Below are positions 652 through 64,000 of a stretch of 64,000 bases of DNA, piece by piece; position 1 is the stretch's first letter; the number at the start of each line of letters is the position of its first letter. The position numbers were made by a program, and so were the translations under genes. Under the pieces are notes generated by a model. That model was not told the origin of the DNA. It ran no database searches and saw only the letters and a program-made list of their open reading frames with translations. The stretch is taken from positions 62,001 to 126,000 of the forward strand of contig JAAEYW010000004.1 in assembly GCA_018223185.1 (NCBI GenBank), given 5' to 3'. Source of the DNA: Oceanospirillales bacterium. GTDB taxonomy: Bacteria > Pseudomonadota > Gammaproteobacteria > Pseudomonadales > Balneatricaceae.

Positions 652-670
652 TGTTTAAGTGGTGGTTTCT

Positions 671-1309
671 ATGATGACTGATTCTGATTATTTTGATTCT
701 GAAATCGCTGATAGTCGACGAAATACCCCCGAGCTGGTACTTGCGTCTGCCTCTCCCCGGCGTTTAGAGCTATTGCAGCAGATCGGAGTGATCTGCAGTG
801 TCAGGCCGGTTGATATTCCGGAAATTGCGCAACCGGGGGAATCACCACTGGCGTTTGTTGAACGACTTGCCAGAGATAAGGCCTGTGCTGGATTGGCTGT
901 CGCTGCCGGGGATGCCGTGGTGCTGGGCGCGGACACCGTTGTGGTCAGTGACGGGAAAATTCTGGGTAAACCTGCTAACCGGGAAGAGGGGCTGGCCATG
1001 TTGCAGCAGCTTTCCGGTTCGAAACACCGGGTGATGACAGCAGTAACGCTAACAAGCCGGGAACAAATTCTCACTCAGGTAGTCACTACAGAAGTACAGT
1101 TTCAAACATTGAGTCAGGCTCAGTGTGAGCGCTACTGGGATACCGGCGAACCCTGTGACAAGGCCGGGGCTTACGGTATTCAGGGGTTAGGCGCGGTTTT
1201 TGTTGCTAGTATTAATGGCAGTTACTCTGCCGTAGTCGGACTGCCGCTGGCAGAGACCGCGGCGATGCTGGAGAGGTTTGGTATCCCTGTGTGGCAGGTT
1301 AAGTGCTGA
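671..1309 (+). CDS. maf: Maf/YhdE-type nucleotide pyrophosphatase
   Basis: Maf-family NTP pyrophosphatase. The YhdE branch hydrolyses dTTP, UTP and modified pyrimidine nucleotides, a house-cleaning role. The family signature LASASPRR sits near residue 25. It is followed by the catalytic GADTVV and LGKP segments and by the TGEPCDKAGAYGIQG block typical of YhdE. The product has 212 residues from ATG 671. GTG 659, GTG 662 and ATG 674 are alternatives, because the N-terminus carries about 20 poorly conserved residues before the core. It sits 19 bases after mreD and precedes rng, the conserved yhdE context. Confidence 0.9.
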   Translation: MMTDSDYFDSEIADSRRNTPELVLASASPRRLELLQQIGVICSVRPVDIPEIAQPGESPLAFVERLARDKACAGLAVAAGDAVVLGADTVVVSDGKILGKPANREEGLAMLQQLSGSKHRVMTAVTLTSREQILTQVVTTEVQFQTLSQAQCERYWDTGEPCDKAGAYGIQGLGAVFVASINGSYSAVVGLPLAETAAMLERFGIPVWQVKC

Positions 1310-1504
1310 CTGCCCCGTGAGTGGGTGCTGATGTAATGAACATTGCCAGCTGTTATTTTTGATACGGGACCGTGCTTTTTCTGTGCTGGTTTCTGATTTG
1401 TTTTATTTAACGAGAGTTTACAACGATTACGGTACTTGCCGGTTTAAGGTACAGTACCAGAGATGACTGACGGGACCTGATTGTGGGTCTCCTAGGGAAG
1501 GATT

Positions 1505-2989: not shown

Positions 2990-2991
2990 TT

Positions 2992-5900
2992 GTGTCATTT
3001 ATCGGGCGGGTGTTAAGGGCTCTAAACCGCTGGCTGGGCTGGGTTCTTGTTATCGCCATACTGGCGATCGCTCTGCTTACCGTTGTCGTGAGACAGCTTC
3101 TTCCTGCTGTCTGGGATTACCGCACAGATATTGAACAGTATCTGAGTGGCCGTCTGCATACCGAAGTGACGATTGGCGAGATTAATGCCAGTTGGGAAGG
3201 CCGGTTTCCACGGTTGTTATTGCAGAATGTAGTAATTGCTGATCACCGATCACATAATATCGGCCGGGTTGAGCTGGGGCAGTTGGTGCTGGGGCTTAAT
3301 CCGGTCAGTAGTCTGTTAAAGTGGCAGCCGGTACTGAGCAAGGTTGAAATCTGGTCACTGCATACACAGGTAAAGCTGGTCCGCTGGCCTCACCCTGTGA
3401 CAGCGACGGCTGATGATAACGTAGCGTCGTCAAATTCAGCCTCAGATCCTCTGGCTGCACTCTGGTTGCAGCCTCATATATTTTTCTACGATACGCAGGT
3501 CGATCTGACTCTGCCGTCTGGCAAACAGTTATTGCTGCAGAGCGAGCGTTTCAATCTGGAAAACAGTAGCCGTCAGCATCATTTTGCCGGGGAACTTCAG
3601 GTTACTTTTGAGCAGCGTCAGGCGGCTGCCACCCTGCGCATTGAATCTGACAGTTACCAGTTTGATCCCAAAAACACCAATTTTGACTTTTATCTGAAGC
3701 TTGCGGGTATTGATACTCCGCTGCTGGATGCTGCCCGGGAACTGTTTCCCGTCCCGGGGTCTCTTGAGCAACTGGAGCTGGCTGCTGAGATCTGGGGAAA
3801 CTGGTCTAAAGGACGTCTGACACAGGTATTTGGTGATCTCGAGACTGGCCGGTTGCAATTAGCCACAGAGCAGGATGCGCTGAAAGAGTTGTCGATAAAA
3901 GATCTGATGACCCGTTTTGTGCTTCTGCAACCAGAGCAGCGACGCTACCAATTACAGATCAATGACTTTTCTGCCCTGATTAATGATCAGCCACTTCAGC
4001 TGCCCCAGCTGGTGATTAACCGTGAGAAGGGACGGATCGGTTCGCTTGCGCTATCTGAGTTTAATGTTACTTCTGCCGCTCAATTTATTGGGAAGCAGTC
4101 GTTTTTGCCGGAGAACGTTAAAGGGGTGGTGGATCAGATTGCGCCCACCGGGATGATTCGTAACCTTGTGCTGCAGTGGCCCGATGATCAAACGCTGCCG
4201 ATGCCTGATACTGATGTCGGCGGGCCGAAACCTGATGGCTCGGGAGCTAACAGCCCTGAAACAGAAACAGTCGTTTTTCAGGATGGTTTGCCTCAGGACA
4301 AGAGCGCTCAGGACTGGAGTCAGCTGACACTGCAGGGGGATCTTCAGGATGTGGCCTTCAACGCGGCTTATGGCGCCCCGGCTATGTCTGGTGTCACCGG
4401 GTTATTGCAGCTTGAGTATGGTCAGAGCGGGCTGCTGGGACGCATCGATCTGGAGAGTGATCATCTGGGCCTGCATTTTCCTGAGGTGTTTGAGCGGGGC
4501 TGGGAGTTCAGTGCTGCACGTGGCACCACTCACTTTAGTCTGGCAAAGAATACTCTTCACCTGAGCAGTGAACATGTCACGCTGCATAAGCCGGGTATCA
4601 ATGCCAGCGGCCGGTGGAGCCTCTATCTGCCACTGGAGCATGATATCCAGAGTGAACTGACGTTGTTGATCGGGGTGAACAACTCAGATGGTAGTCTGGC
4701 ACCAGAGCTGATACCTGATCATGAGATCGACCCTGAAATTAAAAAATGGGTGACACAGTCGATTAAAAAGGGACATCTGAATCAGGGCGGTTTTATGCTG
4801 CACACCGGCACTCGCAGGATTCCGTCACGCCAGCCGCCGACCGTGCAGATGTTTATGGATATCGCAGGGGCTGAGGTGGATTATGCGCCTGGCTGGCCAG
4901 TCGTCCGCGCGGCCGACGCCTCATTATTGCTGCGGGATCAGGGGCTGGCGATCAGCGTCAGTGAAGGACAGATTCACGATAGTAAAATACAGCATGGCTG
5001 GGTTTATCTGCCGCCAGCATCGCATAATCTGCATATTATTGCTGCGGTCAGCGGCGATAGCTCCGATATTGGTAAAACTCTGCTGGGCAGCCCGGTGATG
5101 GGTGGAAACAATAAAGAGTTGCAGAACTGGCAGCTGAGTGGCCTGGCAGATACCCGTCTGAAACTTATGATTTCATTGAATGGCGGTGAGCCGGATATTG
5201 ATGTTAGCAGCGACTTCACTGACCTGGAGCTGGTTTCGGATAGTCGTAAGCTGAGCATCAGTAAGCTGGCGGGCAAAATCGGTTATCGGAATGATTCCGG
5301 GCTCTATGCAAAGTCTTTGACCGGGACGTTTTTTGGTCATCCGTTGAGAGGGTCGATTGAAACAACGGGTAAAGAGCGTTCCGAGAAGATTAGTGTCCGG
5401 CTGAACTCATCGATCACTATATCACAGTTGAGACAGTGGAGTGGTATTGAAATGCTTGCGGTGGCTGAGGGAGAGCAGCCCTATGAAGCGGATCTGGATA
5501 TCTGTATCCGTGCGGACTGCTCCGGGCTGACTGTGCGTTCAGACCTGAAGCAGACGGCGCTTGAGCTCATTGAGCCCTACAGTAAACAACCGGGTGAGGT
5601 CTTGCCTTTCCTGTTGCATACTGATTTTGAATCACCACAGACATTTAATATTAAAGCGGGCGATCAGCTGAGTGCCTGGCTGCAACTTGAAGCGGGAGCG
5701 TTTAGCCGGGCCCGCTTGGTATTAGGGACGGGTGATGCCCGGCCAACCGCCTACAAAGGACTGGAGATTACTGGCCGCTTAAACCGACTCGATTATGAGC
5801 AGTTGATCGCCATGTTGAAACGCGCAGGTATTATGACGGACTCCGGGTCGTCAGATGTCGAGGGGGCCGATAGTCAGGCGGTAGCGGTTCAGGGGGCGGT

Positions 5901-44324: not shown

Positions 44325-45998
<1,674 letters not shown>

Positions 45999-46215: not shown

Positions 46216-46389
46216 ATGGCATTAACAGCAATGGAAGTGAAACGTCTCACTTGTCCTGAAGGAAATAAGTAAATCAAGAAGATTGACCGTAATTGCTTGT
46301 ATTTATTAGTAAAAAATAATGGATCAAAGCTGTGGTGTCTACGTTATCGTTTCAATAATAAGTATCAGGAATTAGCTCTGGGAATCTGA
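46216..46389 (+). pseudogene. Truncated tyrosine recombinase (integrase) N-terminus
   Basis: The frame starts MALTAMEVKRLTCPEGNK, hits TAA at codon 19, then continues in frame with DRNCLYLLVKNNGSKLWCLRYRF and QELALGI before TGA at 46387. This is the N-terminal arm-binding domain (DUF4102 type) of a phage/island integrase. The catalytic domain is missing. A good GAGGGGG lies before the ATG. It marks a former integration event after groEL. Confidence 0.8.
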
Positions 46390-46510: not shown

Positions 46511-47476
46511 CTACGCTCTCGGCATTTGATCGACTCGAGCAATGTTGGCTAGTGTGAATAGCATCGCTAATTTGCTATCGTTTTTCATCAAGCCGAGATA
46601 ACGTGCTTTCATAAACCAAACTGGCACTCAATGATCCGAAAAGGGTGCTCAACTTTGGCTCCGACGCTAACCTTCAGGATATTCAGTTCGAATTTTTAGC
46701 TTATTGATTCCAGAGCGTTTCTTGAACTCGCGAATCTTTTCAGGCTGCTCTGCAATGTACCAATCAGCTTCAACCTGCGACAGCTCTGAACGCTTTTTTG
46801 CGCTTCTGTATCCCGCATCAGCAAAAATAAAACCCTCGTCTCCGTTCCAGAGGTTACCCGCTTGATTGAGGTCATGTTCATTCTCAGCAGTTGTAGTGAA
46901 ACTGTGTGTGATTCCAGTACGGGCATCGGCACCGATATGCGCCTTCATGCCAAAATGCCACGCGTTGCCTTTTTTCGTTTAATGCATCTCAGGATCACGC
47001 TCACCTGTGTTGTTCTTCGTTGAGGTCGGTGCTTCAATGATCGTCGCATCAACCAGCGTTCCTTTCTCTAGAAGAACTCCTGCTTCAGTCAGCTACGGAT
47101 TCACTTCATCGAATAGTTTTCGAGCTAAACCTTTTCGTTCCAGCAGATGACGGAAGTTCATGATGGTTGTGCGGTCAGGAATGGCTTTATCCAGAGATAA
47201 ACCAGCAAATAGAGGCATGGAAGCAATTTCGTATAACGCATCTTCCATTGCAGGATCACTCAGGCTGTACCAGTTCTGCATGCAGTGAGTACGTAGCATC
47301 AAATAGAGTGGGTATGGGCGGTGGCCATTCCCCGCTTTGGGATAATGCGGTGAAATAATCTTCTTCAAACGCTTCAAGGGTATGAGTTTATCCATGCGCC
47401 CGAGAAGGATCTCTTTACGGGTTTTTCTGCGCTTCTGACTGAACTCTCTGTCGGCAAAAGTGAGCTGGTGATCCAT
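46511..47476 (-). pseudogene. IS5-family transposase, inactivated
   Basis: In one minus-strand frame the start gives [20 protein letters not shown] and [21 protein letters not shown], the IS5-family N-terminus. It continues with [40 protein letters not shown] and [13 protein letters not shown], carrying the DDE core. In-frame stops occur after FDEVNP (47093) and before [10 protein letters not shown] further stop and frameshift near 46667 precede [19 protein letters not shown]. The element is therefore dead. I could not define its terminal inverted repeats. Confidence 0.85.
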
Positions 47477-47744: not shown

Positions 47745-48485
<741 letters not shown>

Positions 48486-48691
48486 GAATGAAGTTGAAAA
48501 GGTGTGGCATAAATGTCATAAGTGAAATAGAATCCTTAGTGCGGTTTTTAAAAATTCCTGAGTTTTGTAGTGATTTTTTGTTTAAAAATTTGGGATTTGT
48601 TATTTAAATTCAAAAGTTTAGGTTTATGGCTGCCTGCTGCTTTTTGGATGATCGACAGTAACTGCTTGTATTAATACATGGGACTAAGCAC
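48486..48691. other. Upstream region of the giant adhesin gene
   Basis: About 200 AT-rich bases between the IS3 remnant and the adhesin start. It presumably holds the adhesin promoter, which I cannot place with confidence. A 23-base stretch (48650-48672) matches 46281-46303 in the integrase remnant at 20 of 23 positions. Confidence 0.45.
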
Positions 48692-51600
48692 ATGAACAAA
48701 GTTTACCGAGTGATTTGGAATGCGTCCAAAGGTGTGTGGCAGGCTGTCGGTGAGATAGGTTCAAATAAGGGTAAATCCAGATGCCGGGGCATAGGGGCTA
48801 TCTCTTTAGCGACGATCCCCTCGATTGCAGGCAGTTTATTGCTGATTAGTCCCATGGTGTTGGCGGGTGCGTTACCGTCGGGCGGTCAAGTGGCGTCCGG
48901 TTCGGCTGAAATTAGTGTGTCAGGTAATAAGTTACAAGTACTTCAGTCATCGAATAAAGTGGTCATTGATTGGCAGTCCTTTTCCATAGGTGAAGGTAAC
49001 GAAGTCGAATTTTCGCAGTCATCTTCGCAAGCAGCCGCGTTAAACCGGGTGACCGGTTCTCAAGTGTCGGACATTCGCGGGTCTCTTAAAGCGAATGGTC
49101 AAGTTTTTCTGATCAACCCCAATGGTGTTTTGTTTAGTGCTACCTCAGAGGTCAATGTTGGTGCGTTGGTCGCATCGACGTTGGATATCTCGAATGAAGA
49201 CTTTATTAATGGTGATTACAGCTTCGAAGGCGCCGGTACGGGCACCGTAATCAACCGCGGTAATATTCGCAGCGCAGAGGGTGGCTTTGTCGCTATGATT
49301 GCCGCCAGTGTGGTCAATGAAGGCAGTATCGATGCGTTCGGGGGTACCATCGCAATGGCCGCGGGTAAGCGGATTGTATTGGATATGGGCGGTCCGGTTA
49401 AAGTCTCTGTCGAAGAAGGCGCGCTGGATGCTTATGTAGAACAAGGCGGTGCCGTGCGTGTAGGAGGTGGCATAGTGCTACTTACCGCTAAAACCGCCGG
49501 TGAACTTTCCTCGAGTGTGATCAATCATACCGGTATTACCGAAGCGCAAACGCTTCAAACGGGTGAAAATGGACGTATTGTCTTAGCGGGTGACGGAGAG
49601 GTATCGATTACAGGTACATTGGATGCCACATCTGCAGAGGGTAAAGGTGGTGAAATTCAGGTCACCGGTGCTGAAATTACGTTATTAGAAGGTGCTCTGC
49701 TTGACGCATCCGGTCGAGATGGCGGTGGTCAGATCTTGGTGGGAGGGGATTATCAGGGTAAAAACGCTGAAGTGCCTAATGCCATTCGCACTTATGTAAA
49801 CGAAGGTGCTCGTATCGTGGCGGATGCAACGGGTAACGGTGATGGCGGTAAAATAGTTGTCTGGGCCGACGAGCACACTGAGTTTTCGGGTCACATTTCT
49901 GCTAAAGGTGGCGCACAAGGGGGCGACGGCGGCTTTGTTGAAGTGTCGGGGAAGCAGACCTTAGATTTTCAGGGCACCGTCGACTTAACTGCAGCGCATG
50001 GCACCACCGGAACATTGTTGCTGGATCCAACTAACCTGACTATCTCAGCAGGCTCTGACAGTAATGTGACGGGCTCTTCTCCTTATATGCCTGCTACGGC
50101 TACGGGTTCTGTCATAAATGTGTCTACCCTTGCTGCAGCCTTAGAAAATGCGAATGTTACGGTTACTACGAATAGTGGTTTTGACGCGGGTGAAGCTGGC
50201 AATATTACAGTTGCCAACAGTATCGGCTGGTTTAGCGATAGCACATTGACACTGGATGCTGCCGGCGCTATTACCATCAACGATGACGTGAATATTCAGA
50301 CCTTTGATGGCTCGCTGGTGTTAACCGCGGGTAGTGATATTACTCAGATTCACGCTACGGGCGGTAAATTCTTAATTGGTGGTACTACCACAGCGATATC
50401 CGGCGGGAATATAACGCTTACATCCACTGCCAATCAGTTAATTGGAACCGTTGTAGCAACAGCAAATACTGGTGCAATAGCCATTACGAACTCGCGTTCT
50501 CTTGTCTTAGGGGATGTCAGCGCCAGTGGTCTGGTCGCGTTGAAAACCGTAGATAATGCGGGTTCGATAACGGTTAATGGTGCTTTTTCTGCAGGTGAAT
50601 TGAATGCTGCTGCGCATACGGCTGGGGGCATCTCGATTGCTGATGTTAATGGCGATCTGACGGTTAGCCTGCTCGAGGCTGGCGGTGCTATTACGTTGGG
50701 TAATGCGGCTAGCGGGACATTGACGTTTACCCATGGCAGTGATGGCAGCAATGTCATTGTGGGTAACGATGCGGCAGACGGCCAGGCCAGTGGTGTTGTA
50801 ACAATTATCGGACACAGTCTGGTCTTTAATGACGGTGTTCGTACCAAGGGTGGAACGGTTAATCTGGAATCGATAACCGGGTCGATAATGACGGCCTCTG
50901 ATGCGGACATTGTAACGACCGCTGATATTGATACAGGCACCGCATCTGGATTGATTAATATCACTGCGGCTAACGGCATGACGCTGCAAAATATCACCAC
51001 CACCGGTGCCGATAACCAATTGGGTGTAGGTAGTAACGCGGCAGCTGTTACCTTAACAGCCACTACCGGTGATATTGCGGTGGGTGCTATTACCACCACC
51101 GGTGGAGATGCAGTCGCTAATGTCGCCTATCCCAACCGTAGTGGCGGTAATGCCGGCAGTATTCTTATTGAAGCCACCACCGGTGTGATGTCACTTAATG
51201 GTGATTTGAATGCGGCAGGCGGTGGTTATTATGGTTTCTCAACCCAGGGGCTGGGTGGTTATATCCACTTGAAAACACCCGCGATATTAACGGCTAATCG
51301 AGTGATCTCATCGGGCGCTACCTCGGGCTATATTGATATTGATTCAACCATTAATTCCGGTGGTGCCGCATACAGTCTTAATGTTGTGGCGGGTACGGGC
51401 CATGTGACTCTTGATGGTGTGATAGGGGGAACGTCACCGCTGGCAAGCTTAACGGTGAGTGGTGCTCAAATTGATGTAGAAAAGAATGTCACTACGAATG
51501 AAGCTGCGGGTGTTGATCTTACCGCAGGTACTGTTCGATTAGGGGATCAGGATCTTGAGAATGGTAGTGGCGGTGGCGCGATTACCATTAATACACTGGC

Positions 51601-54600
51601 TGGTAATGGTGTTGTCGATATTAATGCAATTAACACTTACCTTGACGATGATGTGATATTTACCCGCGGTAGTGGTGAAATTAATGTTTCCAACCATCTC
51701 TACAGTAATACTAGCGAACGTAATGATTTAACTTTTAACGGTGCTGAAGGCGGGGCGGTAGTAGTAGGCGGTTTTCTGGGGGGCACGTCAGCCACGTCGG
51801 ACACCAAACTTGGCGATATCCTGTTCGAAACTGTCACTGATATTACCATAGGGCAGAGCGTCTCAGCAGCTAGTCTGATTTCTCTGAACGGAACGGGGCG
51901 TATTAATTTAGGGCAGAACAGCAGTTACAGCCACTATTATGATGCAGTTGGCGGGCTGCAGTTGGCCACGACAGGAACAAACAATGTTTTTGGTGGGGAT
52001 GAGAACTTTTATTTCTACGGTGATGTCACTAACAGCAACGCAACGGCCCCTATATCAGTCAGTACGCCTAATGGAAATATTAGTTTCTACTATGATGCAG
52101 ACCTTGTTACAGCGGGTGGCGATGTAATCCTCAAGGCAGGTAACGGGGCGCTTGCTCTGGGCAGTTCTACTGACATAACCACTAACAATGGTTTGCTATC
52201 CCTCACGGGAATCGGTGTTTCGCAGTCCGCTACCAATAGTGTGCTAAATGCGGGTAGCGGTAAAATTCGTATTGACGGGGGAGGTGCCGCGGTTTCTCTT
52301 TATGGCCGTTTGATTACAACGGATGATGATTCACTTGGCACACCCTCAATCTTAGTGAGTAATGCAACAGGCGCTAATTTCCGCTCGGTAGAGACTCAAA
52401 CCGGTACCTTTCAGGTAGGTCTGATAGCAGGTGATGCTAATCTAGCGGCCGAGCAAACCGTAGGAGGTGCGGAAAATCTAACGCTCACGACAGAAGAAAT
52501 TCGGCTGGGCGTGGCTCAGGAAGTCACAATCACCAGTGCAGGTGATGATAGCGCTAGTGGTGCAAATGTAACCTTTACTGTCACAGGTACAGCTGCGAAT
52601 GGCGACCCATTAGTGGAGCTTATCGTGGGCGGTAACGCCGCCGCAGTAACGACCACCGGCCTGTTTAAAACCATTACCAGTATCGCCAGCAATAAAGCCA
52701 CTACTAGCACTGTGAGTGTTGGTTTAGCTGCGGATGACGCTATTTCGGGATCATTGACTCAGTATCCCAACAACAGTTATTCCGATAGTCAAATTGACAT
52801 TAAAACGCTGTCAGCCGCCACCAAGGGGGCGATTAGTATTACCAGTACTGAAAATATCATCGATGAGCTGGGTGATTTCTCGGTGGGCAGTACTTTGACA
52901 GTGCAGGCGAGTGGTCGTTTATCAGGTATGGCGTTAACCGGCGATGTGGCGGCAACAAGTGTCACGATTAAGACTGGTGTCGGTGCTTTGGCGCTGGGGG
53001 GACGTGATATTGCTGCAACGAGTGGCAATATTATACTTCAGGGCCGTGGTGTGACCCAGGAGGCGGATTCAACTGTTTCTGCTACGGGTACGGTGACTGT
53101 TTATGGTAGTGACTATGCTAGCCAGTCGATCCGTGGTGACGTGGTGATGGCGGGTCATATTATTGCTGGTAGTACTGCAAGCAATGCGGTGACGATTGCC
53201 GATGCGAATGCAATAACAACGCCTTCTATTACCACGGGCAGTGTTGGTTCGCGCGGGGGGTTGCGTTTAGGTACCCATGACCATAACGGTAGTACATATC
53301 GACGTGCCTATGGTGCTATTGATCAAACAGCTGGTTCGCTATTAACCATTGGTGCGTTGGATATTAGGCAGAACAGTTCTGCGGGTGCGATCGATCTTTC
53401 GTTGGTGACTAACGAAATTCAATCGGTCACGTATGTTGAACGCGGTGGCGCCATTACGCTTTACGACAAAGATACTGAAGCCAATGGTCTTAGCTTGTCG
53501 AATATTTATGACGGAAGTTTTGGCAATCTTCTGAAGGCGACAACTGAAGGTGCGATGACGCTATCAGGAACCAATCGTGGTAAGGGTATGGAGCTGACTG
53601 CAGGTGCAGGAGGTTTTATCGGCAGTGGCAGTATTGAAGGTCATCAGGGCGGCGCAGGTTTGGTGAAAATTACCACCACAGGTGCGTTGGCTCTAACAAG
53701 CGGTACTCTTTATGCTAAGGGCGTGCAGTTAACGTCTGGTGCTTTGGGTATTACCAGTAATACTGATATTCAGGCGCATCACTCTGGTGGAGGTGACCTG
53801 ATTCTCGATGCCGGTGGCGGTGACATCACTCTGACGCAGCGTTTATACAATAGGAATACTGGTACAGATATTGTGCTGCAAAATGCCAATGATGTTCAGT
53901 TGCAACGCGTAGAACTCAACGATGGGAAGTTAATACTTGGTGGGGCACTGACAGGGCCGGGAACGGCATTGACAGGTAATGTGACGCAAACCAGTTATAT
54001 TACAGCTTATAGTGACACCATTAATATGGTCGGTGAGGTGGCAGGTGCCGTTACGTTGAATAGCACCAACCAGATTTATCGAATGGGTGATTTTACAACC
54101 GGTGATTATTTTACCTTCTCGAATCAGGATCGCACACTAACCTTGGATGGTGCGATTGAGTCAACCGATGGTAACGTAAGTATTAGTAATCGTCGTTCAT
54201 TGACGGTTAGTAGTGCAGCGACAGTAGATGCAACTGCTGAAAATAAAGGTGTTACTTTAACGGCCAGTAGTAATGAATGGAATTATACGGCGAATATCTT
54301 AGGTGCAATAACGGCCGGTACGGGGGGGCTTAATCTATCGTCGACCTACGGTTATGTTTCAACCAGTGGCGCGGGTACGTTAACCTCGAAAGGCGCGGTT
54401 AATATCTCATCGGCGCCAAGTGCTACCACTCAAAGTACAAACTATTACACGAGTATTGACGCAGCTGTTTCAGCGGGTGAAGGCGGTAGCGACAATATTA
54501 CGATTAATTCCTACGGTACGTTCACTAATGGCACTAATGGTTCGCTTACCGCCACCGGCGGGGTCGTTATCAAGACAGATTGGAATGGCACGCAAGAACG

Positions 54601-57600
54601 TAATATGACCTTAAGCAGTGACATTACTGCGGGCTTTGATGGCGTTAAGCTGACATCGAGTGGCACCATTAATCAAACCGGTGGTGTTATTGTCACTACA
54701 GGGACTTTATCTGGGGCCAATCAAAGTGGTGGGATACCTACTTCAAGTTTGCCATCCGCACGTGGTGCAGTGACATTAACGGCTAACAATGAAATCGCTA
54801 ACCTGGGCCCTTTCTACCTCTACGATGAAGCACAGGTAAACTTTACCCTAAATGATGTGAGTGGCGGGTTGACACTTGCCGGCACGATTGAAAACTCCCA
54901 TGGAGCAATAAACATTTCCACGGCCGGGGGAGTATTAGACCTTACAAGTTACGATGTTTACGCTGGTGGTATGGCCTCAGGTGGTGCAGCGGTCACGTTA
55001 ACCGGTCAAGGTATCAACCAGGGAAGCGGCAGTGAAATTAGTACCACCGGAGGTACTACGGGTAGCCCGCGAACAGGTAGCAATGGCGGAGGCATTATCA
55101 CCCTAACCGGCCATGATGGTGTGGCTGCAGGTGCGATTTCGCTGGCTGGCGGTATCTCAACGGTCAACGATTCAACCTCTGCTATTACTATCCGTGGTAC
55201 GACTGATCTGCAGTTGCCTGGTATTATTGCTTCCAAAGGCTCATTAGTGCTGGGTGACGATACCGCTACCATCGGTTTGATTACCGGTAACATTACCCAA
55301 GCGGTATCGACTGCGTTAGATATTAAAACGTTGCAAGTGGGTACCGCGACGAATGCTGTGAGTGGTTCGGTAGTGCTGGCAAATAGCACTAACAAAATTG
55401 AAACCCTCGCTGGATTGTATTCCGGGGCTCATCAATATGTCGGTCCTGAGACTGATATTCAGTATGATCTCGATATTTACGATTCCACTGGGGGGTTGAA
55501 CTTAACCGCAGGGGTTGTTAGTGATGAAGGCGTTCGTATTCAAACGACTGATGCGACCACGGGAGTACTGTCGATCGGTGCCAATTCGATCTCGGCCAGT
55601 GGTGATATCTATCTGAGCGGTCTTAGCGTGACCCAAGCCGATGGTTCAACGGTTAATGCCGATAACAGCGGTGCTGGCGGCATCGGGGGGTCTATCCGTA
55701 TAGACGGTGGCGGTGGTGCCAGCAACATCACCCTGGAAGGCATGGTGACAACCGATAGTACAAGTGCAACCGCTATTGAAATAGTTAATGCCACGAATGC
55801 AACCTTGCATATGGTAAGCGCCAGTGCCGGTACTGTGGTATTGGGTGTTGATACCAAGGAATTGACCGGTACCGTTAGTCAGTTGGATGCAAATAGCACG
55901 ATTTCTGCGGCAACCTTAGTGGGTGATGCGGGTGTTGTTACGATCAATAAAGCGAACATCGATAACCTTGGCCTATTTACCACGGGTGGCGCATTTACAC
56001 TGGTCGAGCAGGGAGGTAGTGGTGCTGCTGGTCTGACATATACAGGCAGTGTTATCACTGGAGGTACAACCTGGATAGAAACGACGGATGGTATCCAGAA
56101 TTTAGCTAGCCAAACATTGGATGCCACGGGCCAGGCATTGACATTAAAAGGGATCGGGTTATCACAAGAGGCCGCTTCAGTTATTAAGTCAACTACCGCA
56201 GATTTGTATGGTGGTGCAGGAGATATCGATCTCTTTAGCACAGCCAACGACTTTACGGGCCAGGTGACGGTTAATTCAACAGGTAGCCATGTTAACCTGC
56301 AGGATGCTAACCAGTTAAGTATGAATACCCTCACTGGGAAATTAGCAACGACAACCTCTATAAAATTACATGCGGGTACTTATGTCGCGCTGACGACGGA
56401 AAACTTAACCACTACGAGTGGTGATATTGAGTTTAAATCGTTAGGTGGACTATTAAATACCCCGGGAAAACTGACCACGGGCAGCGGTAATATCACCCTG
56501 TACGCGTCTGAAACCTTATCGTTGGCAGAGAAAATTCTTTCTACAAGTGGCGATATCGATATTGAAGCCGCAATTGTTGCAAGCCGTGCTGGCGCTGAAG
56601 ATTACATTCAGACCGCTGGTGCCGGAGCCATCAATATCCGCGCCACGAGTGGTAATTTTACCCAAGGCTCTGATGTTCTCTATAAGACGGTGGATGGCGA
56701 TATCACGCTGTCAGCGTTGGCCGGGAATGCGACATTAGCTAATGTTCAATCGAGCACAGGTGATCTGCATGTAACCGCGGGTGGTAATATTCAGCAGCTC
56801 TCGGGTAGTGCAATTAATGTTGCAGGTATCGATGCACTGACGAAAAAAGATGCCATTGGCAATATTACCCTGACTGAAAGTGCGAATAACGCTGCTGCGG
56901 TCCGTCTACGGACATTGAATGGTGCCGGTGATACAGCAGTTGCGGGTGTGATTCAATATGAAGATGCCGATGGTTTCTCCATTCGTGAAATTCTTACCAC
57001 TGCAGATACGACTCTTATTGCTCGCGGTGATATAACCGCCGATAGCATCGGGTATGCGGGTACCGTTACAGCCGATACTTTTACAGTTAAAACACGCCTT
57101 GATGCCGGTGCTGGAGTCGATTTGACTCAGGCTAACAATGTTAACTCACTTAATATTAAGGTTCGAACTGCGGATGACTCAGCGATTGCTGGTGAAACCA
57201 CCACGCCGACGGGCACGATTAGATTTACGGATAGTGATGGGTTTGTTGTTACCGCAATCGAAACAGGTGGCACTACCGTATTGACTGCAGGTGATGCGGT
57301 TACCCAAACGGGAGCCATCAGTTCGGCCAAACTTGGTCTGTCAGGTGCAGGTGATTACACCCTTAACCTGGCTAGTAGTGGTGCTCCGGTGAATCAGATT
57401 AGTACTTTTGCTTCTGACTCGACGGGTGCGGTTAATTTCACTACGAATTTGGATCTGGTGATTGGAACGGTTAACCCGGTGGGCATCACCACCAAAGGTG
57501 CGGATATTTCGATTACGGCACCAACCATCAACAGTAGTGGCGTCGCGATTGATACGCGTAGTGATAATGACGGTACGGCCGGTGGTTCTGTGATACTCAC

Positions 57601-60600
57601 TACCAGTGGTAGCGGTGCGTTAGGTAATTTAACGGTTGGGGATATTGTCACTAGTGGTACCGCTGCGACAGCGTCATCGGGTAATGGGGGTGGCGCGGCC
57701 GGAATGATTACGTTGACATCGTCGGGCGATCTATTAACCGTTGATGGTGCGATTAGCGCCCGCGGTGGAGCCGGTGATGGTATCGGTATTGCGGGTGCCG
57801 ATGGCACGATTAAACTTCTATCCGCTGCGGGTGCCGTTTTACAAGCGGATGGCGCGACGGAAATCGATGCAGGTAAAGTGCTGCTGGATGCGTTGAATAG
57901 TTCAGCCTTACTCGATTTGAATAATACGATTGATCTGATATCCGCCAGAATTGGTGGTGTTGGCCAAGATTTCACTTATCGCAGTGGCAGTGATTTCTCT
58001 GTTGGCGGGGGTGAAAATGGTATTGAGGGTATTACTACACAGGGTGGTTTAGTCGATATTGGTAGTAGTGATTATGCCATTTCAGTTACGCAAAATATTA
58101 TAACCAAAGGCGGTGCGTTTACTGCCACTGGAGTTCGTAGTTTCAACTACACCGGTGTGACAATTTCGACAGCGGGTGATGTCGGTTACGCTAGTGCGGC
58201 CTATAAAAATGGCGGTACGATTAATATAGCTACTACGGCCAATAACGGCAACGTTAACACCGGTACTTTGATTTCCAGTGGTGATGTTGTTAATGCGGGC
58301 GACTCAACGGCGGGTAATATTACGCTTAATGCTAACGGTGAGCTGACTGTTCATATGACCCAGGCGCAGGGTAAAGGTAGCGGCACTGGTGGCGTGGTGA
58401 GCTTGACCGGTAGTACGGTGAATATTGCCGGTTCTATCGATACGAGTTCTACCGGTGCTGCCGGCGGCATGATTAGCGTTAATGGCCCTGCAGTTCTGGT
58501 CGGCGGTGATCATGTGTTGGCGACAGGTTCGGGTGCGGGCGATATCAACTTTACAAGCCTCCTTAATAGTGATGGTACATCACGTGCGCTGACCATCACT
58601 GCGGGTGCTGGTGATATTATATTTAACGGTGCAGTGGGCGGTAATTCTGCATTAGGTGCGCTGAATATCGTGTCAGCCAATGATGTGACGATGAACGATG
58701 CTTTAACCGCCGCAAGCTTTACGCAATCGACGGGTACCGGAACATCGACGCTGGGTGGAGTTGTTACGCTGAGTGATTACTTGGCCTTTACCGGTAATAA
58801 CCTGTCTGTGAATGCTGCGACGGGTGTGGGTGGGGTTATTACGATCAGTAATGCCGGCTTGTTTACTACGGCCGCTGCGGGCGATATCACATCTGTTGGT
58901 ACATTTGGCCAAATTGGTGCGGGCACCAATGCCCTGGCTGGTGATATTAACACTACAAATGCCGATATCAGCTTCGCAACAGGCATTACGTTCACCGGTG
59001 ATATGGTGATGAGTACCAACACTGGAGCGGGTAATATCGTTTTTGCTGATATCCTTAATAGTGATACGACACCACGGGATCTAACATTGTCATCCGGCAC
59101 CGGCAACGTAACTTTTGCTGAGGTTGTTGGCGGTGTTAATGCGCTTGGTATGCTGGCTGTGAATAGCGCTGGCGTGACTAAGTTTAGCAATGCTGTCACG
59201 GCTGCTTCTGTTACCACCGATGCTGCGGGTACCGTTGAGATCAAGGGTAAAACGGTTAATACAAGCGGTACGCAAACATACAATGATACGGTCTATTTAG
59301 GCGATAACACTACGCTTACAGGTAGTATTATTACCACGAACGACGCCATCATTGGGGCGAACCACAGCCTGCTTGTGGCGGGCGATGCTGTATTGGGTGA
59401 CGCCGCAGATGATAGTGTGACCGGTCTTACGACGCTTGAAGTGACAGGTGCGACAACCATTAATGCCGATACTATTACCAGTGCGGACGCACAAACTTAT
59501 ACAGGTGCAGTAATTCTTGGTAACAGTGCAACGTTAACGGCCGCTGATGACCCGATACTGTTTTCTAGTACAGTGAATTCGGAAGCCCTTGAATATAACG
59601 GTTTGACAGTCAATGCCGGCTCAGGTGCTGTGACTTTTGCGGGCGCTGTCGGTGATGCGGGAGATGCTGCGCCTGGTGCCGTTATTGTGAATAGCACTGG
59701 TGTGACTCAACTGCTGTCCACTGTTAAAGCTGGCAGTCTAGTTACTAATGCCGGTGGTACGGTCGAAATTAACGGTGGAGACGTGACTACATCAGGGGTT
59801 CAGACCTACGGTGAGAACGTAACCTTAGGTGCTAATACCGTTCTTACAGGAACAACGATCACTGCAAACGGTACTGTCTCAGGTGCTGGAAATTACAGCC
59901 TGGGTATTACTGGTGATGCGGTGTTTGGTGATGGACCTGCTGATACAGTCACCGGATTGACTACGTTAGCGGTGAGCGGAACCACCGCTATCAATACCAC
60001 CGATATCACCAGTAGTGGTACGCAAGCTTACACAGGGGATGTCACTCTGGGTACCGATACGGCTTTGACCGCAGCGAAGGTCACGACTAACGGTAAAGTG
60101 ATTGGCGGAACCCATAGTCTGGATGTAACAGGTAATGCTGTATTCGGTGATGAGGCAGCAGATACCGTTACTGGGTTAAATACTTTAGCGGTGAGCGGAA
60201 CGACTACGATCAATACCAGCAATGTTACCAGCAGTAGTACACAGGTCTACACTGGTGATGTTGATTTGGGGGCTGATACCATATTAACGGCTACTACGGT
60301 CACCACGAATGGCAAGGTCATCGGAGTCGGGTATAGCCTTGGTGTGACGGGTGATGCGGTGTTTGGTAATGATGCAGCCGATACAATCTCGGGTGTAAAC
60401 CAGTTAGCGGTTAGTGGATCGACGGCTATCAACAGCAGTAATATTACGACTCATTTCACCCAGGATTATACGGGTGTCGTTACGCTGGGTGCTGATACTA
60501 CGGTTGATGGTGTAGGTATTAGCTTCTACAGTGCTATCGTTTCTGATGGCACTAACCGTGCGCTGATCGTGAATGACAGTGGCACTACGATTTTTGGTGG

Positions 60601-63600
60601 CGCTGTTGGCAGTACGACAGCAGCTGAACAGTTGACTAGTTTGACCACCGATGCCGGTGGCTCTACCGCCATTAACGGTGGCGCAGTTTATACAACAGCA
60701 GCGCAAACCTATAACGATAATGTGACACTGGCTGCAGGCACAACGTTGTCTGGCACCACAATTACGACCAATGGCACCCTGGTGGGTGGTTCTAATAGCT
60801 TGGCAATAACTGGTGATGCTGTCTTCGGTAACGACGCTAGCGATACGGTTACCGGGTTAACGACACTGGCTGTGAGTGGCACAACCACAATCAATACCAG
60901 TAATGTTACCGGTGATAGCACACAAGATTATACCGGTGTTGTCACACTGGGCGCAGCGAATACCACGCTTACAGGTGTAGGGATTACCTTTACGGATAAT
61001 GTTATCTCCGACGGCACGAATCGAAGTCTGGATGTGATTGATAGTGGCACTACCACGTTTGGTGGTTTAGTTGGTACTTCAAACGTTGGTGAGGAATTGT
61101 CTTTTCTCACAACGGATGCAGGCGGTAGCACCGTGATCAATGGTGGCGCTGTTAACACCACGCAAGAACAAATCTATAACGATGATGTAATTCTTGGTGC
61201 AGACACAACCTTAACGGGCACTAAAATCACTACAGCTGGTAGTGTAGTGGGTGCGGATAATGTTCTGGATGTCATCGGTGATGCCGTGTTTGGCGATACG
61301 ACAGGTGATACCGTTACCGGATTAGCTACTCTGGCCGTAAGCGGAACCACAGCGATTAATAGCAGTGTAATCACCAGTACAGGCACACAGGATTACACCG
61401 GTGCTGTTACTGTGGGTGATGATGCTGTTCTAACAACGGCCAACGCTAACGTGACCTTTTTAAGCACTATCAACTCAGTTGTTGGTGCTAAAACCCTGGA
61501 GGTTAATGCAGGCGCAGGTGATATCACCTTATCTGATAACGCGGGTAGCATGAGTGGTGGTTTATTAGGTGGATTAACATTAACAGGTACTAACCTGTCA
61601 CTTAATGATGTCACTACTATTGGTAGCCAGACATACAATGGCGCGACCACGACCAATAGCACTTTAGGTAGCATTAGCATTTACGCAAGTACGGATTCAG
61701 ATATTACCTTCAATGGTAATGTTGTTATGAATAATGACTTAATGGTTACTACCGGTGCGGGTGTCGGTGCGATTACGTTTACTGGAACGCTAGATAACGT
61801 TACGGGTGAAGCCAACAACCTGTATTTGACTGCAGGGGCAGGCAACATTGATTTTGATGCGGCGGTTGGTGCAACGGATGCCATAGGTGCATTCAATATA
61901 TCATCAGCAACCAATGTAACGGCTGATTCCACTATTGCTGCTGCGAGTGTGACTCAATCTGCGGGTACCGGAACGACCACGTTAAATGGTGCGGTGAATA
62001 CGTCTAATGTGGCCGGAATTTCACTTACAGCTACTAATCTGGCAGTGAATGCTGCGATGACCACAATCAACGCAGGTACAGTAACATTTAATGAATCTGG
62101 CGCTGTGATTATCTCAGCGGCAGGTGATATTAACTCCGACGGTGGTGTGAATATTACTGCTGGTGGAGGCATTGCTACCGCGGGTGATATCACCACCACC
62201 GGTGACGCAATATCATTAAATTCTGCAGTTATGTTAACGGGTGATTCCGCGCTCTCTACAGGTGGCACAGCCGGTGCTATTAACTTCGCAAGCACTATCG
62301 ATGGTGCTCATGCACTACGGCTACTTTCCGGTGCAGCGCAGAGCTTTAATGCGGTAGGTGGTACTACGCCGCTAACGCTACTGCGGGTTGAATCAACCGG
62401 TGCAGTAACACAAACTGCGTCTATGAAAGTGGGAAGTTTAGCCATTAAATCGGCGGGCGCCACTTTATCTAATATGGGTAATGACGTTAATACTCTGGCA
62501 GCACTGTTGTCGGGTGACGCAGCCCTGGTGTTTGTTGATGTCGATGGCGTAGAGATTGGCACTATTGACGCTGACGCGCTTCAGATTGTCGGTATCAGCG
62601 ATGGTGCCGGTACTTCAGATGTCAGCATCACTGTGGGAGGCCTGCTAAGTCAGGCGGTTTCATCACCGATATTGATTGATGGCAACTTCACGGCCGATAC
62701 CACCGCGTTTGATGCAGATGATGTATCGCTTAAAAACACGTCGGCAGGCGGTACTGAACTTGATAATTCATTAGTTGCCGGTGACTTTAGTGTGAATAGC
62801 ACCGGTGATGTGACTCAAAAAATTGATGCCAACGGTGCTGGTGCCGATGCATGGGTGCAAGTGGGCGGCTCATTCAATATGACAGGCACAGGAGTTTTTG
62901 TAGAAGGGAACTCAACGGATAATTTAATTGGCGGAGGTTCTGCCGGTACCGCGGCTAATGAGATTCGCTTGTTTGGTGTCATCACGTTAAGTATGAATAC
63001 TAACGGTGATTTGGTTGCTGTGGCGACCACTACCGGGTCAGGAACAACAAGTACAGATACTATACTAGCGGCTAATTTAGCCAACGGAGCCATCGTGACC
63101 AGTGATGCCGGTGGTAAGAGTATTAGTGCGGTAACTGATGGCGATGCGATCTTGCTTAATGCGAATAATACCATTGGTGGCACAGTTAAAATCACTACCC
63201 AGGGTGCGTACTCCAATGCAGGGACTCCTGTGGCGACGGGTATTCTCCAGTCGAACGCATTAACACTTGACGGGAATAATCGCTTTCTGGCGATGCAAAG
63301 CACAGAAAACACTACTTCTGGTATAACCGGTGCCGGAGCAATTGATTTAAGTAATGTAGCGAATACCTTTGCAGGCATGGTTTCTGCCACAGCAGTAGGG
63401 ATGGACATCCATCTGCGTGATAGTGATGCGCTTGATTTGGGTACTGTAAATGGTCGTGACGTTACGATTGAACTGGCGAATGGAAGCACTGATACGATTA
63501 CGCAAACCGGCGTGATTACCGCGACTAACTTGTTGTTGCAAAATGCTGGTGCAGTAACTTTGAACAACAATAACCGCATAGCGACGGTCGCCGCGAACGT

Positions 63601-64000
63601 AAATGGTGCATTTAGTCTGGCTAACAACCAGCCACTCACAGTGGGGATGGTTAATGGGGTGAATGGCCTGACTGTACGTGGAGACATTACCCTTACCAGT
63701 GATGCATTGGCTATTAATCAGGCAATTACGGCAGCAGGTTTTGCCTTAACACTTAAGCCGTTAAGCAGCGGTACATCAATCGGCCTGGGTGACGGTGTCG
63801 GTGATTTTTCAATCGATGCAACCGAATGGAACAATCTTACCGACGGCTTTAGTAGCATCATTGTCGGGCGTAACGATGGTACTGGTAAAATAACGACGGG
63901 TGCCCTCACGGTTAATGATAATTTGACATTGCTTAACGCGAACGGTGGCATGGAAATTTCAGGCCATGTGGATGCCGGTAGTAATACGATAATACTGGAT
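48692..64000 (+). CDS. Giant filamentous haemagglutinin-type TpsA exoprotein (partial, 3' end outside window)
   Basis: A single open frame of 5,103 codons without a stop that runs off the window end. The start MNKVYRVIWNASKGVWQAV is an extended signal peptide region, followed by a hydrophobic segment (about residues 36-58) ending at MVLAGA. The TPS/haemagglutination-activity domain follows (about residues 60-200) with the NPNGVLF motif at 142-148, then SGKQTLDFQG and LLLDPTNLTIS near residue 445. The rest is Gly/Thr/Ala/Ser/Asn-rich beta-helix-like sequence with internal repeats. Such proteins are secreted through a TpsB pore and act in adhesion, biofilm or contact-dependent inhibition. No tpsB gene is in the window. 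The C-terminus, and any toxin domain, are unseen. A weak GGGACTAAG precedes the ATG. Confidence 0.92.
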   Translation, partial: MNKVYRVIWNASKGVWQAVGEIGSNKGKSRCRGIGAISLATIPSIAGSLLLISPMVLAGALPSGGQVASGSAEISVSGNKLQVLQSSNKVVIDWQSFSIGEGNEVEFSQSSSQAAALNRVTGSQVSDIRGSLKANGQVFLINPNGVLFSATSEVNVGALVASTLDISNEDFINGDYSFEGAGTGTVINRGNIRSAEGGFVAMIAASVVNEGSIDAFGGTIAMAAGKRIVLDMGGPVKVSVEEGALDAYVEQGGAVRVGGGIVLLTAKTAGELSSSVINHTGITEAQTLQTGENGRIVLAGDGEVSITGTLDATSAEGKGGEIQVTGAEITLLEGALLDASGRDGGGQILVGGDYQGKNAEVPNAIRTYVNEGARIVADATGNGDGGKIVVWADEHTEFSGHISAKGGAQGGDGGFVEVSGKQTLDFQGTVDLTAAHGTTGTLLLDPTNLTISAGSDSNVTGSSPYMPATATGSVINVSTLAAALENANVTVTTNSGFDAGEAGNITVANSIGWFSDSTLTLDAAGAITINDDVNIQTFDGSLVLTAGSDITQIHATGGKFLIGGTTTAISGGNITLTSTANQLIGTVVATANTGAIAITNSRSLVLGDVSASGLVALKTVDNAGSITVNGAFSAGELNAAAHTAGGISIADVNGDLTVSLLEAGGAITLGNAASGTLTFTHGSDGSNVIVGNDAADGQASGVVTIIGHSLVFNDGVRTKGGTVNLESITGSIMTASDADIVTTADIDTGTASGLINITAANGMTLQNITTTGADNQLGVGSNAAAVTLTATTGDIAVGAITTTGGDAVANVAYPNRSGGNAGSILIEATTGVMSLNGDLNAAGGGYYGFSTQGLGGYIHLKTPAILTANRVISSGATSGYIDIDSTINSGGAAYSLNVVAGTGHVTLDGVIGGTSPLASLTVSGAQIDVEKNVTTNEAAGVDLTAGTVRLGDQDLENGSGGGAITINTLAGNGVVDINAINTYLDDDVIFTRGSGEINVSNHLYSNTSERNDLTFNGAEGGAVVVGGFLGGTSATSDTKLGDILFETVTDITIGQSVSAASLISLNGTGRINLGQNSSYSHYYDAVGGLQLATTGTNNVFGGDENFYFYGDVTNSNATAPISVSTPNGNISFYYDADLVTAGGDVILKAGNGALALGSSTDITTNNGLLSLTGIGVSQSATNSVLNAGSGKIRIDGGGAAVSLYGRLITTDDDSLGTPSILVSNATGANFRSVETQTGTFQVGLIAGDANLAAEQTVGGAENLTLTTEEIRLGVAQEVTITSAGDDSASGANVTFTVTGTAANGDPLVELIVGGNAAAVTTTGLFKTITSIASNKATTSTVSVGLAADDAISGSLTQYPNNSYSDSQIDIKTLSAATKGAISITSTENIIDELGDFSVGSTLTVQASGRLSGMALTGDVAATSVTIKTGVGALALGGRDIAATSGNIILQGRGVTQEADSTVSATGTVTVYGSDYASQSIRGDVVMAGHIIAGSTASNAVTIADANAITTPSITTGSVGSRGGLRLGTHDHNGSTYRRAYGAIDQTAGSLLTIGALDIRQNSSAGAIDLSLVTNEIQSVTYVERGGAITLYDKDTEANGLSLSNIYDGSFGNLLKATTEGAMTLSGTNRGKGMELTAGAGGFIGSGSIEGHQGGAGLVKITTTGALALTSGTLYAKGVQLTSGALGITSNTDIQAHHSGGGDLILDAGGGDITLTQRLYNRNTGTDIVLQNANDVQLQRVELNDGKLILGGALTGPGTALTGNVTQTSYITAYSDTINMVGEVAGAVTLNSTNQIYRMGDFTTGDYFTFSNQDRTLTLDGAIESTDGNVSISNRRSLTVSSAATVDATAENKGVTLTASSNEWNYTANILGAITAGTGGLNLSSTYGYVSTSGAGTLTSKGAVNISSAPSATTQSTNYYTSIDAAVSAGEGGSDNITINSYGTFTNGTNGSLTATGGVVIKTDWNGTQERNMTLSSDITAGFDGVKLTSSGTINQTGGVIVTTGTLSGANQSGGIPTSSLPSARGAVTLTANNEIANLGPFYLYDEAQVNFTLNDVSGGLTLAGTIENSHGAINISTAGGVLDLTSYDVYAGGMASGGAAVTLTGQGINQGSGSEISTTGGTTGSPRTGSNGGGIITLTGHDGVAAGAISLAGGISTVNDSTSAITIRGTTDLQLPGIIASKGSLVLGDDTATIGLITGNITQAVSTALDIKTLQVGTATNAVSGSVVLANSTNKIETLAGLYSGAHQYVGPETDIQYDLDIYDSTGGLNLTAGVVSDEGVRIQTTDATTGVLSIGANSISASGDIYLSGLSVTQADGSTVNADNSGAGGIGGSIRIDGGGGASNITLEGMVTTDSTSATAIEIVNATNATLHMVSASAGTVVLGVDTKELTGTVSQLDANSTISAATLVGDAGVVTINKANIDNLGLFTTGGAFTLVEQGGSGAAGLTYTGSVITGGTTWIETTDGIQNLASQTLDATGQALTLKGIGLSQEAASVIKSTTADLYGGAGDIDLFSTANDFTGQVTVNSTGSHVNLQDANQLSMNTLTGKLATTTSIKLHAGTYVALTTENLTTTSGDIEFKSLGGLLNTPGKLTTGSGNITLYASETLSLAEKILSTSGDIDIEAAIVASRAGAEDYIQTAGAGAINIRATSGNFTQGSDVLYKTVDGDITLSALAGNATLANVQSSTGDLHVTAGGNIQQLSGSAINVAGIDALTKKDAIGNITLTESANNAAAVRLRTLNGAGDTAVAGVIQYEDADGFSIREILTTADTTLIARGDITADSIGYAGTVTADTFTVKTRLDAGAGVDLTQANNVNSLNIKVRTADDSAIAGETTTPTGTIRFTDSDGFVVTAIETGGTTVLTAGDAVTQTGAISSAKLGLSGAGDYTLNLASSGAPVNQISTFASDSTGAVNFTTNLDLVIGTVNPVGITTKGADISITAPTINSSGVAIDTRSDNDGTAGGSVILTTSGSGALGNLTVGDIVTSGTAATASSGNGGGAAGMITLTSSGDLLTVDGAISARGGAGDGIGIAGADGTIKLLSAAGAVLQADGATEIDAGKVLLDALNSSALLDLNNTIDLISARIGGVGQDFTYRSGSDFSVGGGENGIEGITTQGGLVDIGSSDYAISVTQNIITKGGAFTATGVRSFNYTGVTISTAGDVGYASAAYKNGGTINIATTANNGNVNTGTLISSGDVVNAGDSTAGNITLNANGELTVHMTQAQGKGSGTGGVVSLTGSTVNIAGSIDTSSTGAAGGMISVNGPAVLVGGDHVLATGSGAGDINFTSLLNSDGTSRALTITAGAGDIIFNGAVGGNSALGALNIVSANDVTMNDALTAASFTQSTGTGTSTLGGVVTLSDYLAFTGNNLSVNAATGVGGVITISNAGLFTTAAAGDITSVGTFGQIGAGTNALAGDINTTNADISFATGITFTGDMVMSTNTGAGNIVFADILNSDTTPRDLTLSSGTGNVTFAEVVGGVNALGMLAVNSAGVTKFSNAVTAASVTTDAAGTVEIKGKTVNTSGTQTYNDTVYLGDNTTLTGSIITTNDAIIGANHSLLVAGDAVLGDAADDSVTGLTTLEVTGATTINADTITSADAQTYTGAVILGNSATLTAADDPILFSSTVNSEALEYNGLTVNAGSGAVTFAGAVGDAGDAAPGAVIVNSTGVTQLLSTVKAGSLVTNAGGTVEINGGDVTTSGVQTYGENVTLGANTVLTGTTITANGTVSGAGNYSLGITGDAVFGDGPADTVTGLTTLAVSGTTAINTTDITSSGTQAYTGDVTLGTDTALTAAKVTTNGKVIGGTHSLDVTGNAVFGDEAADTVTGLNTLAVSGTTTINTSNVTSSSTQVYTGDVDLGADTILTATTVTTNGKVIGVGYSLGVTGDAVFGNDAADTISGVNQLAVSGSTAINSSNITTHFTQDYTGVVTLGADTTVDGVGISFYSAIVSDGTNRALIVNDSGTTIFGGAVGSTTAAEQLTSLTTDAGGSTAINGGAVYTTAAQTYNDNVTLAAGTTLSGTTITTNGTLVGGSNSLAITGDAVFGNDASDTVTGLTTLAVSGTTTINTSNVTGDSTQDYTGVVTLGAANTTLTGVGITFTDNVISDGTNRSLDVIDSGTTTFGGLVGTSNVGEELSFLTTDAGGSTVINGGAVNTTQEQIYNDDVILGADTTLTGTKITTAGSVVGADNVLDVIGDAVFGDTTGDTVTGLATLAVSGTTAINSSVITSTGTQDYTGAVTVGDDAVLTTANANVTFLSTINSVVGAKTLEVNAGAGDITLSDNAGSMSGGLLGGLTLTGTNLSLNDVTTIGSQTYNGATTTNSTLGSISIYASTDSDITFNGNVVMNNDLMVTTGAGVGAITFTGTLDNVTGEANNLYLTAGAGNIDFDAAVGATDAIGAFNISSATNVTADSTIAAASVTQSAGTGTTTLNGAVNTSNVAGISLTATNLAVNAAMTTINAGTVTFNESGAVIISAAGDINSDGGVNITAGGGIATAGDITTTGDAISLNSAVMLTGDSALSTGGTAGAINFASTIDGAHALRLLSGAAQSFNAVGGTTPLTLLRVESTGAVTQTASMKVGSLAIKSAGATLSNMGNDVNTLAALLSGDAALVFVDVDGVEIGTIDADALQIVGISDGAGTSDVSITVGGLLSQAVSSPILIDGNFTADTTAFDADDVSLKNTSAGGTELDNSLVAGDFSVNSTGDVTQKIDANGAGADAWVQVGGSFNMTGTGVFVEGNSTDNLIGGGSAGTAANEIRLFGVITLSMNTNGDLVAVATTTGSGTTSTDTILAANLANGAIVTSDAGGKSISAVTDGDAILLNANNTIGGTVKITTQGAYSNAGTPVATGILQSNALTLDGNNRFLAMQSTENTTSGITGAGAIDLSNVANTFAGMVSATAVGMDIHLRDSDALDLGTVNGRDVTIELANGSTDTITQTGVITATNLLLQNAGAVTLNNNNRIATVAANVNGAFSLANNQPLTVGMVNGVNGLTVRGDITLTSDALAINQAITAAGFALTLKPLSSGTSIGLGDGVGDFSIDATEWNNLTDGFSSIIVGRNDGTGKITTGALTVNDNLTLLNANGGMEISGHVDAGSNTIILD
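59270..61384 (+). repeat. Tandem 73-residue repeats in the giant adhesin
   Basis: Imperfect in-frame repeats starting at 59270, 59489, 59798, 60020, 60239, 60458, 60701, 60920 and 61166. Type A units are 73 codons (219 bases; the one at 59798 is 74) and carry TQxYTGDVTLGADT, ITTNGxVxGxxxSLxVTGDAVFG and DTVTGLTTLAVSGTTxIN. Type B units (59489, 60458, 60920) are 81-103 codons; the latter two share ISDGTNRxLxV and TDAGGSTxINGGAVxTT. The order is A B A A A B A B A. They probably add turns to the secreted beta-helix. Confidence 0.88.

Follow-up and report, generated by a model that had tools for sequence, protein, structure and literature searches.

The right end of the window (the whole 64,000-nucleotide stretch of DNA analysed here, C1:62001-126000, so that contig coordinates, prefixed C1, equal the window position plus 62000) carries most of an intact gene for a giant TpsA protein, and the tps cluster to which this gene belongs is the cargo of a 25.4-kb genomic island inserted at the 3' end of groEL, from which the integrase has been lost. 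Taken as a whole, the best explanation of the data, and one in which considerable confidence can be placed, is that the cluster constitutes an intact two-partner secretion operon whose TpsA is a 626-kDa exoprotein of the HMW1/EtpA class. Judging from its sequence, this TpsA most likely leaves the cell through the TpsB encoded next to it and serves as a giant adhesin or a biofilm/cohesion rod.

The tpsA frame starts at position 48,692 and stays open for 15,309 bases, or 5,103 codons, up to the window edge (48692..64000, forward strand), as a preliminary description of the window had reported. In the contig continuation it runs on without an internal stop to C1:129687, 3,687 bases beyond the edge, for a complete length of 6,331 codons, and zero undetermined bases (N) occur in this stretch. 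Given the base composition, an open frame of this length would arise by chance with a probability of ~5e-149, and the frame is therefore clearly not accidental. Both N-terminal features named in the preliminary description have been recovered by profile matches, namely, an extended signal peptide region (ESPR; residues 1-40, 48692..48811, forward strand; PF13018, 6.1e-12) and a TPS secretion domain (residues 59-303, 48866..49600, forward strand; PF05860, 1.5e-34) with the motif NPNG at residue 142. The product has a pI of 4.05 and a high content of T, G, A and S, and possesses a sole cysteine, residue 31, within the signal region. Residues ~330-5,280 gave almost no Pfam match, only two sub-threshold hits to DUF5649. 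Self-matching revealed a diverged internal repeat zone at residues ~3480-4450 (59129..62041, forward strand), with off-diagonal identities reaching 75% over 80 aa and a score of 293, versus a best score of 68 from three shuffles. A single-sequence structure model of residues 3521-4120, made up almost entirely of short strands at low confidence (mean pLDDT 57.8; best PDB match, E 0.18), was set aside as too weak, and it offers no proof of a beta-helix. Finally, a Pfam search of the last 1,829 residues identified YDG in eight stretches (1.1e-90) and MBG_2 in one (2.2e-6). These YDG stalk repeats lie beyond the window edge (C1:126871-129423, forward strand), where they are found at nine places at the DNA level, of which one falls short of the curated cut-off, and the most similar pair shares 70% identity over 80 aa.

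The partner gene, tpsB (535 aa; C1:129846-131453, forward strand), also lies beyond the window edge and starts 158 bp downstream of the tpsA stop. Its product combines a ShlB barrel (1e-23) with a POTRA_2 domain (8e-14), and its sequence matches the TpsB4 and CdiB structures. Several hallmarks of two-partner (type Vb) secretion are thereby present: a signal region followed by a TPS domain with NPNG, and an adjacent POTRA/ShlB-type tpsB. Genome-wide, three TPS-domain and three ShlB matches were found, paired on the same three contigs. The preliminary description had placed the decisive C-terminal part of TpsA and the tpsB gene outside the window, which proved correct, and the search to the right that it proposed yielded both the stop codon and a tpsB/shlB-type gene. 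Its identification of the product as a TpsA exoprotein is supported by the domains and by the adjacent tpsB, and the signs of a degraded gene that it had envisaged, an early stop and no secretion partner, were not encountered. Secretion via TpsB, a rod-like shape, adhesion and co-transcription of the cluster are what we infer from these features.

With respect to class, the TPS domain has its nearest solved structures in EtpA (1.1e-83) and HMW1 (5.2e-49), followed by HxuA. TpsA possesses NPNG, and both NPNL, the motif of the FHA class, and VENN were looked for in it and are absent. The type of TPS domain is shared with EtpA and HMW1, and in all three the tpsB partner gene adjoins tpsA. Unlike them, the TpsA described here ends in a YDG/MBG stalk, is devoid of C-terminal cysteines and is accompanied by a further gene, ialB; it is also about four times as long as the 1,564-residue EtpA chain in the PDB. 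HMW1 uses a C-terminal cysteine pair as an anchor, and no pair of this type exists in TpsA. Likewise, no gene for an HMW1C-type glycosyltransferase was found in the island, where no ORF besides tpsA and tpsB would be long enough. Tandem YDG/MBG domains, the mark of YDG stalk adhesins, are present in TpsA, and the combination of tandem YDG with one MBG_2 is shared with the YDG/MBG fibrillar adhesins covered in portions of PMC9210967 and PMC8201768, from which TpsA differs in its TPS secretion domain and in repeats that are diverged rather than near-identical. The former treats YDG as a stalk domain, and the latter, a study of Periscope proteins, is the work in which the families YDG and MBG_2 were built. 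The highly similar tandem repeats that mark Periscope proteins were not seen, since no tandem DNA repeats were found in 48600-64000, the window part of tpsA; judged by repeat similarity alone, TpsA is not a length-variable Periscope protein. As residues ~330-5,280 are almost without a family match, an adhesive function of TpsA is suggested by its class.

The island that carries the cluster is delimited by direct repeats. Its insertion site is the 3' end of groEL (548-aa ORF; 44352..45998, forward strand), which we take to be an unusual integration site, and the last bases of groEL form an att-like 16-bp repeat (45983..45998, forward strand) whose exact second copy, at C1:133411-133426 beyond the window edge, ends the island. 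The left end contains the remnant of a tyrosine integrase, a piece of its arm DNA-binding domain (46273..46386, forward strand; PF13356, 8.7e-7, 29.4 bits versus a cut-off of 27), followed by broken pieces of an IS5-type transposase (DDE_Tnp_1 and DUF772, searched apart; 46667..47476, reverse strand) and by a weak IS3-like transposase piece (rve; 47916..48326, forward strand; PF00665, E 0.03, below the cut-off). The preliminary description had rightly recognized an "IS graveyard" next to the giant gene, although the IS3-like piece is the weak part of it. Going beyond that description, this debris is the decayed left end of the same groEL island, and ialB comes after tpsB. IS5-type pieces occur on both sides of the operon; a single IS5 split by the operon was rejected as their origin because the left and right pieces cover an overlapping portion of the transposase (71% match, direct orientation), and they represent two copies. 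Comparative genomics supports the insertion. The gene on the right flank of the island (323 aa) lies 25.5 kb from groEL in the window's genome, whereas groEL directly adjoins it in 8 of the 14 genus relatives fetched. These were drawn from the 16 other genus genomes with that gene, G011 and G013 being left out with the gene at a contig start. For the remaining six, a search of the ~8-10 kb on that side found no groEL, so the empty site has been demonstrated for eight only. The characteristics of an integrase-driven island seen here are direct repeats at both ends, an integrase (as a remnant only) and an empty site in relatives, and it is the adjacency of groEL and the right-flank gene in relatives, the 16-bp repeats and the integrase piece that identify the cluster as island cargo. 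The G+C content is 50.3% in the window left of the island, 49.0% in tpsA, 44.0% in tpsB and 40.3% in ialB.

Matches to TpsB occur in 44 of the 116 genomes of the family (own genome included), which also comprises Marinobacterium and Nitrincola. The best ones outside the window's genome are those of Nitrincola schmidtii (G081; 46%), G040 (37%) and G041 (36%). N. schmidtii displays the same gene order, tpsA-tpsB-ialB, with a tpsA of 1,863 aa and a gap of 18 bp between tpsB and ialB. Its TpsA shares 58% identity with the one described here over the first 331 residues and 42% over a second stretch (residues ~5114-5364 of the longer protein), and both possess the tail motif V-[VI]-D-G-G-I; a comparable ending, V-V-D-R-G-I, is seen in the proteins of G040 and G041. 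Among 17 fetched proteins of more than 1,000 aa, the tail motif is found in four, this TpsA and those beside the three nearest TpsB relatives, and is absent from the other 13.

Two other readings of the giant gene merit consideration. The preliminary description had named adhesins, biofilm scaffolds and contact-dependent inhibition (CDI) toxins as candidate classes, of which the first two are favoured and the third is disfavoured. A CDI system of the CdiA type would comprise a long stick, a C-terminal toxin and an immunity gene behind it, and TpsA does fit CdiA proteins in size range and TPS secretion (as given in part of PMC5422565), while the small ORFs without known function after tpsB leave room for an unusual immunity gene. 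However, the search for a C-terminal toxin and small immunity gene recommended in that description turned up YDG/MBG stalk repeats in the last 1,829 residues, with no toxin family and no match to a solved structure; VENN is missing, merely 158 bp and no gene separate tpsA from tpsB, and what follows tpsB is a 67-aa DUF6447-like ORF and ialB. With toxin domain, VENN and immunity gene all wanting, CDI was rejected and is regarded as highly improbable. The second reading is a giant gene in decay on an island that is itself dying, its frame still open owing to recent arrival and its product no longer expressed or secreted. In its favour, the surrounding integrase and IS genes are broken, and a search of 17 genomes of the genus found a close tpsB in no other one (other matches, at most 31% identity). 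Against this stand the 6,331 codons without a stop in a region free of N, the open frames of tpsB and ialB, and the preserved tail motif of TpsA, and decay is accordingly considered improbable.

The gene behind tpsB deserves separate attention. Located beyond the window edge, inside the island between tpsB and its right end, ialB (C1:131747-132262, forward strand; PF06776, 1.8e-25) is the only ialB match in the genome. Its assignment to the IalB family is borne out by PF06776 and by a profile match to Bartonella IalB (PDB 3dtd; E 2.5e-11). The family was named after Bartonella invasion, in which Bartonella IalB has a role; no such role is implied for the protein described here. Family and fold are common to the two, the fold having been shown on a model of the N. 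schmidtii relative (mean pLDDT 80.8) that matches 3dtd at E 5e-10 with TM values of 0.70 and 0.77, but the gene here, unlike that of Bartonella, lies beside a TPS system. No match of the model besides 3dtd was found below E 0.001, and the fold therefore gives no new functional hint.

IalB matches are present in 21 of the 116 family genomes, and in eight of these (G000, G024, G042, G046, G048, G079, G080 and G081) ialB and a tpsB match are no more than 40 kb apart, a cut-off chosen after the positions were seen, versus 0.57 expected under random placement (P 2e-8). The eight include the same-genus pairs G079/G080 and G046/G048 as well as the shared layout of G024/G042, amounting to about five independent cases; for at least five linked cases, the same random model gives P 1.6e-4. 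The two Marinobacterium genomes, G024 (M. sediminicola) and G042 (M. ramblicola), have ialB 30 bp before an outer-membrane-efflux-type gene (a label based on a family search with the G024 copy only), followed by a giant gene (10,900 or 9,239 codons), tpsB and tpsA, while in G048 ialB is upstream of tpsB-tpsA. At the level of the order, only 1 of 16 loci was linked within ~10 kb, that of G202, where ialB is near tpsB and two tpsA genes, one of which is of the FHA type and adjoins ialB.

Two interpretations of this linkage can be offered. It is somewhat probable that ialB stands outside the system, as a stable chromosomal gene or a hitch-hiker beside which TPS clusters land at an insertion hot spot. 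Consistent with such independence, no tpsB hit falls within 40 kb of the gene in 13 of the 21 ialB-bearing genomes of the family, and 15 of the 16 order-level loci have none within ~10 kb, although some of these loci end at contig ends. Within the Nitrincola genus (g12), moreover, ialB lacks an adjacent TPS gene in G082 (14 kb covered) and in G084 (a contig of only 3.3 kb). In a tree of 35 IalB proteins, from which the ORFs of G448 and G427 were lost to the ORF filter (their loci were still checked for tpsB), the linked G079 is sister to the unlinked G082, and linkage does not cluster, requiring 7 changes versus a shuffled mean of 8.2, with 102 of 500 shuffles as low; a TPS-specific IalB clade is thus not supported. 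The IalB described here is sister to both Marinobacterium proteins in this tree (support 97/95). Independence is harder to reconcile with 8 linked genomes where 0.57 were expected, with the recurrence of linkage in different gene orders and with different exoproteins (this genome, N. schmidtii, Marinobacterium, G048 and G202), and with the position of ialB inside the island. IalB may assist the secretion of large exoproteins as an accessory, and one could go further and suggest, as a tentative and rather unlikely proposition, that IalB-family proteins, small and exported and carrying four conserved cysteines, are a dedicated third partner of such secretion in this bacterial family, which keeps giant TpsA proteins from folding in the periplasm, targets them to TpsB or stabilises them at the surface. 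The known extra partners named in section 9 of PMC5422565, a review of TPS systems, are CDI proteins, HMW1C, HxuC and proteases, with no IalB in that section, and no open-access paper was found that was relevant by title to IalB together with two-partner secretion, exoprotein or hemagglutinin.

Between tpsB and ialB lies the 67-aa DUF6447-like ORF (C1:131492-131695, forward strand; DUF6447, 0.0042, below the cut-off), matches to which occur in 12 of the 116 family genomes, own included. A model search of the 11 other neighbourhoods found no tpsB, TPS domain or ialB, so that a role as a TPS-specific partner is not supported. The ORF was recovered in eight of these 11, six of which are near large exoprotein-like genes (DUF4214, T1SS; labels assigned by reading, not by family search), and this small family may be a general marker of exoprotein loci (6 of 11 neighbourhoods).

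Additional exoprotein clusters were observed in the course of this work. The same genome possesses a second one (C43:22724-67100), consisting of an 872-aa efflux-type gene that resembles the one in G024, a giant gene of ~32 kb interrupted by a run of 100 N in the assembly, tpsB (695 aa) and a tpsA with a run of 10 N near its end. The homologues of the giant gene in G024 and G042 have open frames of 10,900 and 9,239 codons, respectively, and two scanned pieces of the G024 copy contain pentapeptide repeats and cadherin-like domains. A third TpsA (C42:96574-108108, reverse strand; 3,844 aa) is of the FHA type with hemagglutinin repeats; the last third contains a long, highly charged stretch rich in K, D, Q and A that appears coiled-coil-like by eye, and Pfam revealed no toxin family. 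In G046 (C1:1096939-1134517 of that genome), a mixed secretion cluster comprises tpsB, a 5,334-aa putative TpsA, the start of which resembles an extended signal peptide, without a TPS-domain search hit, genes of 984 aa and 3,012 aa and five smaller ones, all ahead of ialB. Finally, contig C34 of G202, which belongs to another family of the order, carries two tpsA genes, tpsB and ialB within one 20-kb stretch.

A working model of the system can be proposed. TpsA would be exported by Sec, slowed by its extended signal peptide, after which the POTRA domain of the adjacent TpsB would catch the TPS domain and TpsA would be threaded through the TpsB barrel. Outside the cell, its repeats would fold into a long rod on the order of 100 nm, an estimate that follows from beta-helix geometry, and the C-terminal YDG/MBG domains would serve as a stalk, with TpsA acting as a surface or biofilm adhesin. 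In this model, an island driven by a tyrosine integrase brought the operon into the groEL 3' end and later lost that integrase, and ialB, which may encode an accessory, arrived with the operon.

The tpsA gene is intact, and its product is close to the upper limit of the sizes published for TpsA proteins (~100-650 kDa; PMC5422565); its class has been narrowed and its route of arrival is visible. The need of a periplasmic chaperone network for keeping TpsA secretion-competent is described, in part of PMC8151025, as mostly unknown. If IalB were indeed a third partner, the groEL island would be a mobile three-part secretion cassette, perhaps a four-part one with the DUF6447-like ORF, and the IalB family would gain a mechanistic role. 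The recurring ialB neighbour offers a cheap and testable lead to the periplasmic handling of 600-kDa unfolded exoproteins.
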